NCBI GenBank assembly: GCA_903909215.1 | Contig: CAIVUX010000024.1 | Coordinates: 1-64,000, forward strand | Origin: an uncultured Ferrovum sp. | Lineage (GTDB): Bacteria > Pseudomonadota > Gammaproteobacteria > Burkholderiales > Ferrovaceae | Length of the DNA: 64,000 bases | Direction of reading: 5' to 3' | Shown: positions 1,129-32,828 of the stretch, piece by piece | Layout of the letters: each line of letters begins with the position of its first letter | How positions within the stretch are numbered: position 1 is the first letter of the stretch | The notes under the pieces: generated by a model | What the model was told of the DNA's origin: nothing | Databases searched by the model: none | Seen by the model: the letters and a program-made list of their open reading frames with translations, nothing else | Program-made: the position numbers and the translations under genes

Positions 1129-1773
1129 ATGATTGATATTTCCACTAACGCCATCACTTTATTGACCATAGCTGCTGCTGTGGCGGCTTTCGTGGACACC
1201 TTGGCAGGCGGTGGTGGGCTGATTACCGTACCCGCCCTACTCTTGGCAGGGTTGCCCCCTCTCAATGCCCTGGCCACCAATAAGGTACAGGGCAGCATCG
1301 GCACGCTCACCGCGTCCTTGCTGTTAATGCGCAAGGGTTTTCTCAAACCCGCCCAGCTTAAAGCCCCACAGTTCTATTGCGCATTGGCAGCTGGTTTGGG
1401 TACGGTATTGGTGCAATTCTTGCCAGCCGTCTGGTTAAGTCGCATTGTTCCCTTGGTGTTGTTAATGATGGCCTCACAGGGCCGGGCACTGGGTCCTTTT
1501 TTTCTTGGGCGGGTGTGGCTATTCGGGGTCAGACCCTACTCACGGCCACAGCGCATGCAAAAGCCTTTAATTTTATGAGTAACCTGGCCTCTGTGGCGGT
1601 ATTTGTGGTGGGTGGGCAAGTATTGTGGAGCATTGGGCTGTGCATGATGTTGGGACAAATGCTGGGTGCCGGTTTGGCCACAGTGGTGATGGTTAAAAAA
1701 GGTCTGTGCTGATTCGCCCCATGATTGTGGCGGTCTGCTTCATTATGCTGTTTCGGTTGTGGGTCAGTGCTAA
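1129..1773 (+). pseudogene. Decayed TauE/SafE (YfcA-type) membrane permease
   Basis: An ATG at 1129 opens a frame encoding a typical TauE/SafE N-terminus (FVDTLAGGGGLITVPALLL, then LNALATNKVQGSIGTLTA). After RIVPLVLLMMA near 1472 the similarity stops and resumes in another frame as DGLTGPGTGSFF and TATAHAKAFNFMSNLAS, the usual second half of the family. That frame ends at a TGA (1710-1712), and the expected C-terminus (LIRPMIVAV) continues in the third frame; a TAA in the first frame lies at 1771. About 25-30 residues that normally join the halves are missing. So I see one out-of-frame deletion plus at least one further frameshift. The intact family exports sulfite, sulfonates or similar anions; this copy is inferred to be nonfunctional. 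Confidence 0.75.
1525..1537. repeat. GGGGTCAGACCC half-unit of the dispersed palindrome
   Basis: A single 13-base half-unit with the last base changed (12 of 13 match to GGGGTCAGACCCC) lies inside the TauE pseudogene. It reads RGQT in the second frame, at a place where related proteins have ordinary sequence, so it may be an insertion or a chance coding match. Confidence 0.45.
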
Positions 1774-1775
1774 AT

Positions 1776-3191
1776 TTATGCCGCGCGCAATTCCTTACGA
1801 CTGGCCACCAGCGAGCCGCCAATCATACCCGTAAGGCTAGCCACAAGTCCTGCCAATTGCGGCGGAATTAGGGCATTCGGTGCCACCCATTCACAAACCA
1901 ACCAAACGCCAGCGCCCATTGCCACGGAGAGCAATCCACCCAAGGGCGTGGCGCGTTTCCAATACAGTCCAAAAGCCAAAGGGACAAAAGCAGCCACCAA
2001 GGTAATTTTATAAGCGCCCTCCACCATCTTGAAAATAGACAGCTCTGAACGAATGGCAATAAAGGTCACCAGGCACGTAAACACAAACACCACTACGCGC
2101 ATCACCTTTAACAACTGCTGATCTGTCATTTCTTTGTAAAACCCTTTCACAATATTTTCTGCAAAAGTCACGGAGGGCGCCAAGAGCGTGGCTGAGGCGC
2201 AACTTTTAATGGCAGAGAGCAACGCACCAAAGAACATCACCTGTGCGAAGAGCGGTGAGTGATCCATAATAAGTTTTGGTAAAATGAGTTGTGAATCCGT
2301 ATCAAGATATTGCTTCACCAGTTCGGGGTCAATGAGCGTGGCGGAATAAGCCAAAAACATTGGAATAAAAGCAAAACAAAAGTACAGACTGCCGCCCAAA
2401 ATGGAGGCGTTGCGCGCGGTGTTTTCATTGTTGGAAGAAGTCACGCGCTGAAATACATCTTGTTGTGGAATGGAACCCAACATCATGGTAATCCACGCAG
2501 CAAAAAATCCAATCACTTCTGTGGGATTCAGGGCAGGCCAAAAGTCAAACTTACCAGCAGCGGAGGCATGATTAATGACAGCGGAAACGCCACCGGCTGT
2601 GGCGCTTAAGTCCCAGGCAATGTACACCATACCCAGCATAATGATGATCATCTGAATAAAATCGGTGATGGCCACCGACAGCATTCCACCAAACAGGGTG
2701 TATATCATCACTGTGGCAGCCCCTATGATCATGCCCGCGTCTTTAGAGATCATGTCGTCGGACACCACGTTGAACACAAGGCCCAGCGCTTTAATTTGCG
2801 CGGCCACCCAACCCAGATAAGACACCACAATGCACAGGGTTACCAAAATCTCCACGGTACGTCCGTATTTGATGCGATAAAAATCACCAATGGTGAGGAG
2901 TTTTTTACGATACAAGGGCACAGCAAAAAATAGCCCAACCAAGATAAGGCAGAGCGATGAACCAAAAGGATCCGCCACCACACCGTGCAACCCTTCCTTC
3001 AAAAAGGTAGCGGGAATACCCAGCACCGTTTCTGAGCCAAACCAAGTGGCAAACACGGTAGCGGTGACCACATACAGGGGCATGCTGTGCCCCGCCGCCG
3101 CATAATCCGCGGTGTTGTGCACGCGCATGGCTACCCAGAGGCCAATGGCCACAGAAATAATCCAATAGGCAATCACAAACCACAGCAGCAT
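1776..3191 (-). CDS. Sodium:solute symporter (SSS/PutP family)
   Basis: A 471-residue polytopic inner-membrane protein with about 12-13 hydrophobic segments. The N-terminus (YAAAGHSMPLYVVTATVFAT, then WFGSETVLGIPATF) and SIPQQDVFQRVTSS in the middle are hallmarks of the sodium/solute symporter superfamily, which takes up proline, pantothenate, sugars, acetate or other solutes with sodium. The substrate cannot be deduced. Length is normal for the family. The ATG at 3191 is preceded by AAAGAGGTCACC, a good ribosome binding site. Its 3' end abuts the TauE remnant, and upstream on the same strand is nothing for about 55 bases until the bioD stop, so it could be read together with the biotin genes. 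Confidence 0.9.
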   Translation of the reverse strand: MLLWFVIAYWIISVAIGLWVAMRVHNTADYAAAGHSMPLYVVTATVFATWFGSETVLGIPATFLKEGLHGVVADPFGSSLCLILVGLFFAVPLYRKKLLTIGDFYRIKYGRTVEILVTLCIVVSYLGWVAAQIKALGLVFNVVSDDMISKDAGMIIGAATVMIYTLFGGMLSVAITDFIQMIIIMLGMVYIAWDLSATAGGVSAVINHASAAGKFDFWPALNPTEVIGFFAAWITMMLGSIPQQDVFQRVTSSNNENTARNASILGGSLYFCFAFIPMFLAYSATLIDPELVKQYLDTDSQLILPKLIMDHSPLFAQVMFFGALLSAIKSCASATLLAPSVTFAENIVKGFYKEMTDQQLLKVMRVVVFVFTCLVTFIAIRSELSIFKMVEGAYKITLVAAFVPLAFGLYWKRATPLGGLLSVAMGAGVWLVCEWVAPNALIPPQLAGLVASLTGMIGGSLVASRKELRAA

Positions 3192-27354: not shown

Positions 27355-27358
27355 TCTG

Positions 27359-30058
27359 CTAGTTTAAACCGTAACGACGAATAAACCAGGTTTTCATCAA
27401 ATGCGCCAAGGTGAGGTACCCCAGCATAATACCGGTTAGATAGGCCCAGTACAGAGGCGGCAGCGGGGTAAAACCCAAGGCATGAGAAAAGGGCGAGTAC
27501 GGTAGCCACACGCCCACTACACAAATAACAATACTGGTGATCACCAGCGGTAAGCTGGCCCGGCTTTGCAGAAACGGAATACGTCCGGTACGAATAATGT
27601 GGATGATCAATGTTTGCGACAACAAGGATTCTACAAACCAGCCAGTTTGAAACATAGAAGCAGTGAGTTCTGTGTTGGCCTTAAACACGTAATACATGGT
27701 GCCAAATGTGGCGTAATCAAAAATAGAACTGATCGGACCGACCATCAACATGAAGCGCGTAATATTGGCAATGTCCCAACGTCGAGGTTTGGCAATATAT
27801 TCTTCATCTACGTTATCGGTGGGGATAGCGGTCTGAGAAAAGTCATACAACAAATTATTGGTCAGTACCTGAATGGCTTGCATGGGCAAAAATGGCAGCC
27901 ATGCACTGGCTCCCAGCACGCTAAACATATTTCCAAAGTTTGAGCTGGCACCCATCTTGATGTATTTAACAATATTGCCAAATACCTTACGTCCTTCAAT
28001 GACGCCCTCTTCCAAGACCATTAGGCTTTTTTCTAACAAAATGATATCAGCAGATTCTTTCGCAATATCCACTGCAGTGTCTACGGAAATGCCCACATCC
28101 GCCGCTTTTAATGCAGGACCATCATTAATTCCATCGCCCATAAAGCCCACCACGTGACCGCGCATGTGCAGCGCCTTAATAACGCGCGCTTTCTGCGCAG
28201 GAGACAGTTTAGCAAACACCACCACTTCCTCCGCCGCTTCTGCCAATTCTTCGTCAGTCATTTTGACCAGATCAGAGCCCAGCAAGATGCGATCTACCTT
28301 AAGGCCCACTTGACTGCATACTTTGCGCGTCACCACTTCGTTGTCGCCAGTTAAAATCTTTACCGACACACCATGACGATTGAGCGCTGCAATAGCAGCA
28401 TGGGCACTGTCTTTGGGAGGGTCGAGAAACGCGATGTAACCCACCAGCGTTAACTCAGACTCGTCTTTCACGTTATAGAGCGGCGTTGTGGGGGGTGTTT
28501 CTTTGTAGGCAATGGCAATCACGCGGAAGCCGTCTTCGTTAAGATCGCGTGTCACTTGCACCAGTTTTTCTAAATCAGAGGGGGCTAAGGTAATGGTCTG
28601 GCCGTTCACCTCAGCGTGGGTGCAACAAGCAAACACTTCTTCCACGGCGCCTTTGCAAATCAGTACATGACGGCCTTTGCCTTCCACTACCACCGACATG
28701 CGGCGCCGTTGAAAGTCAAAAGGAATTTCGTCTACTTTGCGATAATTGGCCCCTGCGCGCAGCTGATCATTAAGGCCCGCGTACTCCAGCACTGCCACAT
28801 CCAACAGATTTTTTAATCCTGATTGATGGAAGCTGTTGAGATAGGCGTATTCCAGTACGTCTTCATTCTCGTGGCCGTAAATATCCACGTGCTTTTCTAA
28901 GATAATCTTATCTTGTGTGAGCGTGCCTGTTTTATCAGTACACAGTACATCCATGGCGCCAAAGTTTTGAATGGAATTAAGACGCTTCACAATCACTTTC
29001 TTGCGTGACATAGCCAAGGCCCCTTTGCCCAGATTAACCGTCACAATCATGGGCAACATTTCAGGAGTTAGCCCTACCGCAACAGCCATAGAGAACAGCA
29101 GGGCTTCCATCCAATCGCCCTTGGTAAAGCCATTAATCAAGAAAACTAAGGGGGTCATCACCAAGATGAAGCGGATCATCAGCCAAGTAAACTGATTAAT
29201 GCCGCGGTCAAAGCTGGTGAGCTGCCGATCACCCGACATCAATTGCGCCAAGCTACCAAAATAAGTATTAGAGCCCGTTAGCGCGATGACCGCCGTGGCC
29301 GTTCCGCTGACCACGTTGGTGCCCATAAAGCAGATGTTGGTGAGGTGCAGTGGGTCTTTGCCGGAAATTTCTTCGGTAATGGCGTATTTTTCCACCGGCA
29401 AAGCCTCACCTGTCAGCGAGGATTGATTAACGAACAAATCTTTGGCGGTTAATAAGCGGACGTCCGCTGGAATCATATCCCCCGCGGAGAGTTGAATAAT
29501 ATCACCCGGCACCAAAGTGTCGAGAGGCACTTCGCGACGTTGCGGACCTTGTGGTGAAAGGTGCACATTGAAATAGCGGTTCACTTCATCGGGCACCCCG
29601 CTGCGCCGATCTTTACGCAACACTGTGGCCGTGGTACTCACCATGGCGCGCAGGCGCTCAGCCGCGTTACCGGAGCGATGTTCTTGCACGAATGACAAGA
29701 CAATACTGAGCGACACCATCAGAAAAATAATGCCAGCGGCTTCGGTATCCCCTAAGTAAAACGAGAGGCCCGATAAAGTGAGCAATAGGATATTGAGCGG
29801 GTTTTTAAAATGCGGTACCAGGCGCTTAAAGGGGCCTTTTTGCTTTTCATGGCTAATGGTGTTGGGACCGTAAATTAACAGACGGTCTTCCGCGTCGCGG
29901 TCTAATAGACCATCGGCCGTAGTTTCCAGACGACGTAGAGCAATTTCCGTGTCAGAACCTGCAACGTCGAGCAAGGTGGTGGAAATTTTATTGCTGACCA
30001 CCGGCGCACCCTTGGGGCCACCCGTGAGCCGGGAGATTAAATCAGTGATGTAAGCCAT
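27359..30058 (-). CDS. mgtA: Magnesium-translocating P-type ATPase
   Basis: P-type 3B ATPase of 899 residues that imports Mg2+ across the inner membrane at ATP expense. Seen are the actuator motif SSLTGEALPVEK, phosphorylation motif VLCTDKTGTLTQDK (about 375), ILTGDNEVVTRKVC, and VGFMGDGINDGPALKAADVG; ten membrane segments are expected and NNLLYDFSQTAIPTDNVD near the C-terminus is typical of MgtA/MgtB. The ATG at 30058 follows GAGG by four bases; that ribosome site is flush with an 8-base-pair hairpin. The 190-base leader after clpB suggests its own control, see the leader entry. Confidence 0.96.
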   Translation of the reverse strand: MAYITDLISRLTGGPKGAPVVSNKISTTLLDVAGSDTEIALRRLETTADGLLDRDAEDRLLIYGPNTISHEKQKGPFKRLVPHFKNPLNILLLTLSGLSFYLGDTEAAGIIFLMVSLSIVLSFVQEHRSGNAAERLRAMVSTTATVLRKDRRSGVPDEVNRYFNVHLSPQGPQRREVPLDTLVPGDIIQLSAGDMIPADVRLLTAKDLFVNQSSLTGEALPVEKYAITEEISGKDPLHLTNICFMGTNVVSGTATAVIALTGSNTYFGSLAQLMSGDRQLTSFDRGINQFTWLMIRFILVMTPLVFLINGFTKGDWMEALLFSMAVAVGLTPEMLPMIVTVNLGKGALAMSRKKVIVKRLNSIQNFGAMDVLCTDKTGTLTQDKIILEKHVDIYGHENEDVLEYAYLNSFHQSGLKNLLDVAVLEYAGLNDQLRAGANYRKVDEIPFDFQRRRMSVVVEGKGRHVLICKGAVEEVFACCTHAEVNGQTITLAPSDLEKLVQVTRDLNEDGFRVIAIAYKETPPTTPLYNVKDESELTLVGYIAFLDPPKDSAHAAIAALNRHGVSVKILTGDNEVVTRKVCSQVGLKVDRILLGSDLVKMTDEELAEAAEEVVVFAKLSPAQKARVIKALHMRGHVVGFMGDGINDGPALKAADVGISVDTAVDIAKESADIILLEKSLMVLEEGVIEGRKVFGNIVKYIKMGASSNFGNMFSVLGASAWLPFLPMQAIQVLTNNLLYDFSQTAIPTDNVDEEYIAKPRRWDIANITRFMLMVGPISSIFDYATFGTMYYVFKANTELTASMFQTGWFVESLLSQTLIIHIIRTGRIPFLQSRASLPLVITSIVICVVGVWLPYSPFSHALGFTPLPPLYWAYLTGIMLGYLTLAHLMKTWFIRRYGLN

Positions 30059-30248
30059 AGAGCCTCAATTCCAGAACTCTAGAATTGAGTCATGGCCACG
30101 TTACATGGTGATGACAGGCAGGATTCCAGAGATGCTGGCTATGTTGTATTCGCGGGAACTGGAACAATCCAAGGTAAAACACCCTCAGGCACGGAGAAGC
30201 CGCAATTTTCCGCCCCAAGGGGTTACTCTGTCAACACAATAAAGTGGT
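30059..30248 (-). promoter_or_regulatory. Putative mgtA promoter and structured leader
   Basis: Between the clpB stop and mgtA start. A TTGACA (30234-30229, minus strand) is followed after 18 bases by GAAAAT (30210-30205), a plausible sigma-70 promoter giving a leader of roughly 140 bases. Next to the gene, CTCAATTC at 30082-30089 and GAATTGAG at 30064-30071 (as read on the minus strand) form a perfect 8-base stem with a 10-base loop whose 3' arm ends on the GAGG ribosome site. A five-codon reading frame (ATG ACT CAA TTC TAG, 30093-30079) crosses the 5' arm. It does not look like the M-box magnesium riboswitch. Regulation is inferred. Confidence 0.45.
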
Positions 30249-32828
30249 TTAACGTTTTGAAAAGATTATTTTTCCAGCTTTTACGTCCACCCAAACCGTT
30301 TCCTTCGGCGCGAAGCTGCCCTCTAAAATTTGCAACGCCAACGGGTTCTCTAACTCGGACTGGATGGCACGCTTTAAGGGTCGGGCGCCGTACACCGGAT
30401 CAAAGCCGGTTTGAGCCAATTTATCCAATGCCCCATCAGACACTTCAAGGCCTAAATCCATTTTTTCCATACGCGTCTTAAGATATTGCAATTGAATGCG
30501 GGCAATAGAGCGCACCTCCTTTTCACCCAAGGAATGAAACACCACAATCTCGTCGATCCGGTTAACAAATTCAGGGCGGAAATGGATTTTCACCTCACCC
30601 ATGACTGCCAATTTCACCACCTCGTAATCATCCTCAGACATTTGCTGAATCATCTGGGAGCCTAAATTAGAAGTCATCACAATCACCGTGTTCTTAAAGT
30701 CCACCGTGCGCCCTTGCCCGTCGGTCATACGCCCATCGTCCAATACTTGCAACAGCACATTGAATACATCAGGATGCGCCTTCTCCACTTCATCTAATAA
30801 AATGACCGCGTAAGGTTTACGACGTACCGCTTCGGTTAAATAACCGCCTTCTTCATACCCCACATAACCTGGGGGCGCACCGATCAATCGTGCCACGGAA
30901 TGTTTTTCCATAAACTCGGACATATCGATACGGATCAAATGTTCATCAGAATCGAACAAGAAATTCGCCAAAGCCTTACACAATTCTGTCTTGCCCACGC
31001 CAGTGGGGCCCAAAAACAAAAAAGAGCCATAAGGTCTATCTGGATCACTTAAGCCTGCACGGGAGCGGCGAATGGCATCGGATACCAGCCGTACCGCCTC
31101 GTTCTGCCCCACAACCCGCTGGTGCAGTTTCTCTTCCATATGCAGCAACTTGTCGCGCTCACCTTGCATCATTTTTGAAACTGGAATGCCTGTAGCACGA
31201 GACACCACTTCAGCAATTTCTTCAGCCCCTACTTGGGTGCGCAATAAACGATTGGGTTTTAATCCTGCGGCCGGAGTATCGGTAATGTGTAATTGAGCCT
31301 CCAATTGTGGAATACGGCCATATTTAAGCTCTGAGGCGCGTTGCAAGTCGCCCTTGCGTTGAGCGGACTCCATTTCAGCGCGCACCCGATCCAGCTCTTC
31401 CTTCACATGCTGGGTGCCCTGCACTTGCGCCTTTTCGGCTTTCCAGATTTCCTCTAAATCGGTATATTCTTTTTCCAGCTTTAGTATTTCTTCTTCTAGC
31501 AAGGCCAAACGCTTCTGTGATGCGTCATCGGTTTCTTTTCGGACCGCTTCCCGTTCAATCTTTAATTGAATAAGGCGACGAAATAATTTATCCATCACTT
31601 CAGGCTTGGAATCAATTTCCATTTTAATGCGTGCCGCGGCCTCATCAATTAAGTCGATGGCCTTATCTGGTAAGAAGCGATCCGTAATGTAACGATTGGA
31701 TAATTCAGCGGCCGCCACAATAGCGGGATCCGTAATTTCCACACCGTGATGCAATTCGTATTTTTCTTGCAGGCCACGCAGAATAGCGATGGTGTCTTCA
31801 ACAGTGGGTTCACCCACCTGCACTTTCTGGAATCGGCGCTCTAAGGCCGCATCTTTTTCAATGTACTTGCGATATTCATCCAAGGTGGTAGCCCCCACGC
31901 AATGGAGCTCACCACGAGCCAAGGCGGGTTTCAACATGTTCCCCGCATCCATAGCGCCTTCAGCTTTACCGGCGCCCACCATGGTGTGCAGTTCGTCGAT
32001 AAATACAATGGTTTGCCCTTCGTCTTGCGAGAGTTCTTTTAATACAGATTTAAGGCGTTCTTCAAATTCACCACGATATTTGGCACCGGCCAACAAGGAC
32101 GCCATGTCCAACGAGAGCACACGTTTGTTTTTAAGGCTTTCGGGCACTTCATCATTCACGATGCGTTGTGCCAACCCTTCCACAATGGCGGTCTTGCCTA
32201 CACCGGGCTCACCTATCAAGACGGGGTTATTTTTGGTACGGCGTTGCAAAATTTGAATGACGCGCCGAATTTCATCATCACGGCCGATAACGGGGTCCAG
32301 TTTACCCATGCGTGCCCGCTCGGTTAAATCCAGGGTGTACTTTTTAAGCGCTTCGCGGTTCCCCTCTCCAGCAGCATTGCTGACAGATTCGCCACCACGC
32401 ATGGCGGCAATCGCCACTTCCAAGCGGGCTCGATTGGCTCCATGCTGTTTAAATAGACGACCCGTTTCACCCTTATCATCACAGAGCGCCAGCAAAAATA
32501 ATTCTGATGCAATAAATTGATCGCCCCGTTTTTGGGCTTCCTTTTCAGTGAGATTAAGCAACGCGTTTAAATCTCGGGATACGGTTATTTCTCCGCCCGT
32601 ACCTTCCACTTGAGACAAGCGCGTTAGTGCAACGCCCAAGGCTTGCTTGAGAGCGCCCACTTGAACGTCCGCGCGGGTCAATAAAGAGGCGGTAGATCCA
32701 TCCGCCTGAGACAGGAGTGCGGTCAGCATATGCTGCGGTTCAATAAAACCATTATCAGCACCCAATGCCAACGATTGGGCGTCCGCCAAGGCTTCTTGAA
32801 ACCGGCTGGTCATTTTGTCTACGCGCAT
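30249..32828 (-). CDS. clpB: ATP-dependent disaggregase ClpB
   Basis: Hexameric AAA+ chaperone of 859 residues that threads aggregated proteins apart together with DnaK. The N-domain begins [20 protein letters not shown] as in other ClpB proteins; Walker A of the two ATPase rings are [15 protein letters not shown] (about 205) and [15 protein letters not shown] (about 605), Walker [12 protein letters not shown] and [11 protein letters not shown]; the coiled-coil middle domain lies at about 410-525. Length is normal. A strong heat-shock (sigma-32) promoter lies about 70-95 bases upstream of the start, so heat induction is expected. Confidence 0.98.

Follow-up and report, generated by a model that had tools for sequence, protein, structure and literature searches.

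Leader-controlled Mg2+ transporter genes are of a known kind, and the worked-out Mg2+ leaders that we have met in the literature are those of enteric bacteria and those built on the M-box. The M-box Mg2+ riboswitch is reported to precede mgtA, mgtE, corA and Nramp-related genes (PMC4072509), and in M. tuberculosis it is described in combination with a conserved small upstream ORF (PMC12810186). For the classical mgtA case, that of mgtL in Salmonella, the account is of a 264-nt leader with alternating Pro codons at positions 3, 5, 7 and 9 (PMC6460261). The worked-out system that appears closest, by analogy, to the locus studied here is Salmonella mgtQ, located between mgtC and mgtB. As described, mgtQ encodes 8 aa, two of which (Asp2 and Glu5) make ribosomes unstable, and the mgtB site becomes free through alternative stem-loops (2:3 pairing) (PMC8092293).

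We have analyzed a 64,000-nt stretch of DNA from an uncultured Ferrovum sp. (the window), in which a 190-nt gap lies between clpB and mgtA. A first-pass annotation had read this gap as the leader of mgtA, with a leader-peptide-like layout and a hairpin at the ribosome site. We find there a conserved promoter, a TTG frame and a hairpin over part of the Shine-Dalgarno (SD) sequence of mgtA, which agrees with that outline. There is a fair chance that the Ferrovaceae leader belongs to a wider, unnamed class of leaders standing before metal transporter genes.

Results

Locus and conservation of the leader

The genes around the gap lie on the minus strand, in the order clpB (32828-30249), the gap (30059-30248), mgtA and a gene for a YoaA-type helicase (27354-25417). 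Between the mgtA stop and the helicase frame there are only 4 bases (27355-27358), so these two genes may be co-transcribed. The features discussed below are listed in Table 1.

Table 1. Position of mgtA and of the elements of its leader in the window
Feature	Position	Strand	Basis or remark
-35 element TTGACA	30229-30234	-	Sequence; identical hexamer in 20/20 aligned Ferrovaceae leaders
-10 element GAAAAT (family form GAnAAT)	30205-30210	-	18-nt spacer in the window, 17-18 nt in the family
Transcribed leader, ~140 nt	30059-30198	-	Start predicted near 30198 from the -10 element and the TTGACA/GAnAAT conservation
GAGGG, possible SD of the upstream frame	30182-30186	-	Sequence; 9 nt before TTG; of unequal quality among relatives
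Candidate upstream frame, TTG start, 23 codons, MDCSSSREYNIASISGILPVITM	30101-30172	-	Stop TAA inside the P2 loop
P2, GTCAT-N17-ATGAC, helix with TGTAA loop or DNA direct repeat	30089-30115	-	Helix ends kept in 21/21 leaders
Pho-box-like 11-bp direct repeat TGTCATCACCATGTAAC, overlapping P2	30100-30116	-	Pattern and matrix score 14.2
Five-codon frame ATGACTCAATTCTAG	30079-30093	-	Not conserved; 4 of 21 leaders
P3, 11-pair hairpin CTCAATTCTAG-AGTT-CTGGAATTGAG	30064-30089	-	Folding and comparison
GAGG, mgtA SD	30063-30066	-	Sequence; GAG inside P3
mgtA, Mg2+-translocating P-type ATPase, 899 aa	27359-30058	-	TIGR01524, 1218.7 bits (cut-off 610.75)

The leader was compared across a family set of 32 Ferrovaceae genomes, in 29 of which mgtA was matched at E ≤ 1e-200. 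Twenty compact leaders were readable (L001-L018, L030 and L114) and make up alignment A5; loci cut by a contig end (L024, L025, L111-L113) and genus g6, whose leader is different and longer (L019-L023), were left out. The 20 leaders share the promoter, an upstream TTG frame, an element here called P2 and P3, a hairpin that partly covers the mgtA SD. In L030 (G024:C46), mgtA is split into two overlapping frames (residues 1-376 and 373-899) by a frameshift or an assembly error.

A covariance model built on A5 (R1) matched 21 of the 32 family genomes, once each and at mgtA. The matches were the 20 training leaders and that of G004, which lies outside the training set and keeps the promoter, the frame, P2 and P3. 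The 11 genomes without a match were five of g6 and six without a high-identity match reaching the mgtA N terminus. Over 399 Burkholderiales genomes, searched with stricter filters, R1 matched 12, all of them Ferrovaceae.

We have then calculated mean pairwise identities over 13 leaders. The identity was 0.39 above TTGACA, 0.65 in the promoter, 0.54 between promoter and upstream frame, 0.88 in codons 1-5 of this frame and 0.385 in its remaining codons, 0.75 in P2, 0.78 over P3 plus the SD, and 0.68 at the very beginning of mgtA. By this comparison, the conserved blocks start at TTGACA.

The promoter-like TTGACA and the leader of about 140 bases reported in the first-pass annotation were both recovered, the leader length being the distance from the predicted start to the mgtA ATG at 30058. 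TTGACA and GAnAAT are spaced 17 or 18 nt in 20/20 aligned Ferrovaceae relatives. In the window alone, the promoter is at chance level (1 found vs. a mean of 1.0 in shuffles), and 30030-30248 folds somewhat better than shuffled sequences do (z -2.42, 1 of 200). We regard the promoter and the stem as real because they are conserved across relatives; the window sequence alone would not convince. Judged by this comparison of sequences, the clpB-mgtA gap is a real conserved leader; all that is said below of its function we infer.

A conserved upstream frame with an acidic second codon

In the Ferrovaceae leaders, the upstream frame opens with a TTG 58-65 nt downstream of the first base of TTGACA and comprises 15-23 codons with the N terminus MDCSS or MECSS. 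Codon 2 is GAT, GAC or GAG, and the short frame upstream of the Mg2+ transporter gene thus has the acidic residue 2 of mgtQ in 25/25 Ferrovaceae frames read (21 compact and 4 of g6). The frame is open to P2 in 16/21 leaders, compared with 7 and 4 for the other frames. In 13/21 the stop, TGA or TAA, overlaps the end of the 5' arm of P2 (GTCAT), in 3/21 it is a TAA or TAG in the P2 loop and in 5/21 it lies before P2, counts that are not independent because several rows are close relatives. The window's frame is among the three that stop in the P2 loop, and G004 keeps this stop as TAG.

No third-position excess was found in the variable columns of g8 (7, 7, 7), g4 (6, 7, 6) or g2 (5, 4, 4), nor in those of the L048 group (7, 4, 6) and the ATG group (4, 5, 4) described below; g6 was the only one to present it (6, 9, 13). 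If the upstream frame is translated, its start and length would seem to matter more than its sequence past about codon 5. An overlapping GTG frame (GTG ATC CAT CTT ..) present in some leaders has no SD at a usable distance and was set aside by eye.

The first-pass annotation had assigned the leader peptide to a five-codon frame crossing the stem. Such a frame exists in the window, with an ATG start and a stop at codon 5, and was found in only 4/21 leaders (L001, L007, L009 and L011), with a GTG version in a fifth (L010). It was therefore rejected as a functional element, being probably accidental, and the conserved 23-codon TTG frame lying upstream is the better leader-frame candidate.

P2 and the hairpin over the mgtA ribosome site

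The 8-bp stem ending on GAGG that had been described for the window (CTCAATTC with GAATTGAG) is present and extends to 11 pairs, one of them U-G (30089-30079 with 30074-30064), running into GAGG. Its conservation in relatives had been set beforehand as a test. On 19 distinct rows, 87.3% of the P2 and P3 cells were paired, against 25-43% when slid, so that the stem is kept in the family at large but not fully in genus g2. The P3 of this genus has a different sequence, with the loop-side pairs mostly in register and the outer pairs not.

The P3 cells with changes on both sides amounted to 11, a number that 0/500 shuffles reached, whereas the pairs with both-side changes (3; 181/500 shuffles) and the further pair types (9; 56/500 shuffles) were not exceptional. 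Since related rows can exceed shuffles without any structure, we take the P3 covariation as moderate evidence. The family form of P2 is a fixed 27-nt GTCAT-N17-RTGAC whose internal spacing never varies. No covariation was seen in four of its five pairs; as these four never vary, covariation says nothing for P2.

The mgtA SD was sequestered in most folding models, with a mean accessibility of 0.29 over 20 leaders. When a ribosome footprint was placed at the start, at codon 5 or at the stop, equilibrium folding of the 20 leaders gave a mean SD accessibility of 0.25, 0.30 and 0.31, respectively, vs. 0.29 in the free leader, with single leaders departing either way (e.g., L018, L011 and L016). Footprint-driven opening of the compact-form P3 by alternative pairing was thus negative on average at the level of equilibrium folding. 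A pairing of GGATTG (frame start) with CAATTC (5' arm of P3), considered on visual inspection alone, does not hold in g2 and is weaker in L013.

Related leaders before other transporter genes

Sixty-seven mgtA loci outside the compact set were scanned, and 10 had such a frame 58-61 nt below TTGAC; in the same scan, a leader of this type was absent from L049 and many other mgtA loci. Outside Ferrovaceae, the TTG frames read MDSSRCSGIRA, MDSCSSGTKLA, MDSCSSGTKPA and MDSSCCKCFDA (L048, L050, L051 and L102), all before mgtA. In L052-L056 and L087, ATG takes the place of TTG at the same promoter distance and Gly occupies position 2. The ATG frames read MGSCGSHC.. or MGSCSSHC.. in L052-L056 (4/5 titled Gammaproteobacteria) and MGSCPSPTKKCRRG in L087 (titled Betaproteobacteria). 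A search for the ATG-form pattern in 369 genomes of the class returned 5 matches vs. 5 for the reversed control, all in, across or at the end of other frames; as these were taken as chance, the ATG form rests on L052-L056 and L087.

A second model (R2), built on L048, L050, L051 and L102, matched 10 of 399 Burkholderiales genomes. One match, L172, was counted as training data because it lies on a contig as long as that of L051 and its leader is the same. Seven of the other nine have MgtA-like sequence downstream (including L173 and L175, with mgtA), five of these being in one genus, before a shorter ORF. The L180 leader, a weak R2 match (E 0.0036), precedes mgtE (TIGR00400, 255.9 bits vs. a cut-off of 232.75), and L181, with neither frame nor transporter, was dropped as chance.

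The exact pattern CTTGGACAGTTGYWG, which was chosen from known members, occurred in 14/399 genomes compared with 4 for the reversed control. Nine of the 14 matches stand before transporter-related ORFs, seven of them already R2 loci and two, L186 and L191, new; the other five (L182, L183, L190, L193 and L194) fall inside or across other frames and were discarded. The L191 leader precedes an Nramp gene (PF01566, 3.6e-68), whose product is possibly an Nramp-related Mg2+ transporter. This Nramp-family gene (G087, 1502-3015) has an MntH score of 94.6, far below the cut-off of 430.

In genus g45 of family f38 (L174 and L176-L179), the leader with its upstream frame stands before an ORF of ~209-258 codons with MgtA-like sequence. 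The one g45 ORF scanned, that of L174, gave a P-type ATPase A-domain (PF00122) only, and an ORF that resembles DnaJ by eye follows the short MgtA-like ORF at the g45 loci. In the g45/f38 long forms, the frame stop lies in GCCTAG, which can pair with CTAGGC, the alternatives being CTTCCC/GGGAAG and GGAAGGC/GCCTTCC (partly by eye). By these pairings, the g45 long forms would be laid out like an attenuator. The compact and long forms would share descent, to judge from their common spacing and CTTGGA start.

Comparison with described Mg2+ leaders

The Rfam scan of the window returned two tRNAs at gathering score and nothing else, with no match at E up to 5 in 29900-30400. In 19 related loci, no M-box was detected and two sub-threshold snoRNA-type matches fell outside the leaders. 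The view that the gap shares no obvious sequence with the enterobacterial mgtA leader or the M-box therefore stands: the leader gave no match to the M-box, to the enterobacterial Mg sensor or to a further Rfam family.

The leaders studied here precede mgtA, mgtE and an Nramp gene, which is reminiscent of the reported range of the M-box (PMC4072509); they differ in giving no M-box match, in the window or in the 19 related loci. The M. tuberculosis leader is alike in joining a Mg2+ leader to a small upstream frame, but there the M-box is described as the sensor (PMC12810186), and none was found here. With mgtL, as described (PMC6460261), the Ferrovaceae leader has in common a leader frame before mgtA, and control would likewise couple translation of the frame to leader folding. 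Unlike mgtL, the window frame has a single Pro, at codon 19 of 23, and no Rfam match; among the frames read, only those of g6 are Pro-rich.

The likeness to mgtQ is one of layout: a short frame with an acidic residue 2 before a Mg2+ transporter gene, a ribosome site held in a hairpin and alternative pairings (PMC8092293). Compared with the published description of mgtQ, the Ferrovaceae frame is longer and located in the 5' leader, and equilibrium folding found no site-freeing pairing of the 2:3 type.

Discussion

Promoter, frame start, P2 and P3 are conserved, and leaders of the same layout stand before Mg2+ or divalent-metal transporter genes. We give about an even chance to the reading in which the gap carries a dedicated mgtA promoter and a ~140-nt leader that is a leader-peptide switch for Mg2+ uptake, working in the manner of mgtL and mgtQ but outside their family. 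The dedicated promoter would produce a leader with the short TTG frame and its acidic codon 2, followed by P2, where most frames end, and by P3 over part of the mgtA SD. The progress of the ribosome on the upstream frame, together with P2 and P3, would decide mgtA synthesis, perhaps through early loss of ribosomes at the acidic start when Mg2+ is low. The last step, the opening of P3, could depend on kinetic folding, on Rho or on a protein. Translation of the frame, a signalling role of Mg2+, and the step at which control acts and its direction are what we infer. Weighing against this reading are the missing coding signature in most groups, the frames that stop ahead of P2 in 5/21 leaders, the footprint folding, the Gly at position 2 of the ATG-type frames and the resemblance of P2 to a Pho box.

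More tentatively, with somewhat less than even confidence, we propose an unnamed class of leader-peptide switches defined by a TTG or ATG frame (M-D/E/G-S/C) ~60 nt below a TTGACA-like promoter. This class would control mgtA, mgtE and Nramp-related genes in Betaproteobacteria and some Gammaproteobacteria; its long forms would work by mutually exclusive hairpins with the frame stop in the first arm, and the Ferrovaceae form a compact descendant ending in the ribosome-site hairpin. A literature search covering titles and abstract starts, with most subscription papers outside its scope, found no description of such a leader in Betaproteobacteria, which is weak evidence of novelty; its absence from Rfam 15 is firmer evidence. 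If true, the sharing of one layout by the leaders of three transporter families that are unrelated to each other would suggest a common signal inside the cell. It would also offer an independent test of Mg2+ sensing via ribosome stability on short acidic frames, and the leader could mark which Nramp genes carry Mg2+.

Because P2 closely resembles the Pho box of the family, its reading as a DNA operator stays the main rival, one that we consider unlikely yet worth weighing. P2, with its 11-bp direct repeat TGTCAT-N5-TGTAAY, would then be a Pho box or the site of a different regulator of the OmpR family, and would either form a roadblock within the transcribed leader or drive an additional transcription start close to P3. 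If that start fell within P3, the mRNA would be short, would lack the 5' arm and would therefore have its SD free. The pattern TGTCATN5TGTAAY matched 27 times in 21/32 family genomes (reversed control, 6 matches). Of the 27, 14 are in mgtA leaders, 3 upstream of pstS, 5 upstream of an ABC ATPase in g2 and 5 elsewhere. Two half-sites with an 11-bp period, as in the family pstS, are indeed present in P2, and the window site scores 14.2 where the pstS boxes score 12.8-25.8. With the family pstS-box matrix, 9 of the 13 scored P2 sites (out of 14 distinct) ranked among the top 1e-4 of 485,342 positions; the boxes themselves are part of this background. The invariant internal spacing of P2 also suits an operator. 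Conversely, the second half-site TGTAA is kept in 14/21 leaders, whereas GTCAT/RTGAC complementarity is kept in 21/21, and the site lies ~80-110 nt downstream of the start predicted for the conserved promoter. Moreover, no -10 element was found by eye at the pstS spacing (10 nt), the hexamer there being CTCAAT or CTGAAT, without A at position 2. Pho boxes were typed from 27/28 pstS upstream regions, and the one region in which the scan found no two-part box (L153) is that of the window's own genome.

Rather improbable, in our view, is a riboswitch without a translated frame, in which the CTTGGA block, P2 with its TGTAA loop and P3 would bind Mg2+ or another ligand and close or open the SD. Conservation in nucleotide-level blocks (0.88, 0.75 and 0.78) separated by background identity (0.385) and the lack of a coding signature in most groups are consistent with it. 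So is g2, which has the same blocks upstream but a P3 of different sequence, as would an aptamer combined with an exchangeable platform. What speaks for a frame is the exchange of TTG and ATG at the same place, the openness of the frame and its acidic second codon; besides, the P2 helix is short, and no conserved fold of greater size was detected. That the gap holds just an ordinary promoter and 5' UTR, with the stem a chance inverted repeat without function, agrees with a promoter count that equals chance in the window alone. It is hardly credible given a conservation above that of the mgtA start itself, P3 pairing kept through both-side changes, and a single R1 match per genome, at mgtA.

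The comparison of P2 with Pho boxes left two minor observations. In L142-L169, most Ferrovaceae pstS genes are preceded by a two-part Pho-box-like repeat (e.g., TGTAATCAATCTGTCAT), followed by a TAnnCT-like hexamer (by eye). In five g2 genomes (L116 and L118-L121), TGTCATGATCYTGTAAY lies ~110 nt upstream of an ABC-transporter-like ATPase ORF and looks conserved.
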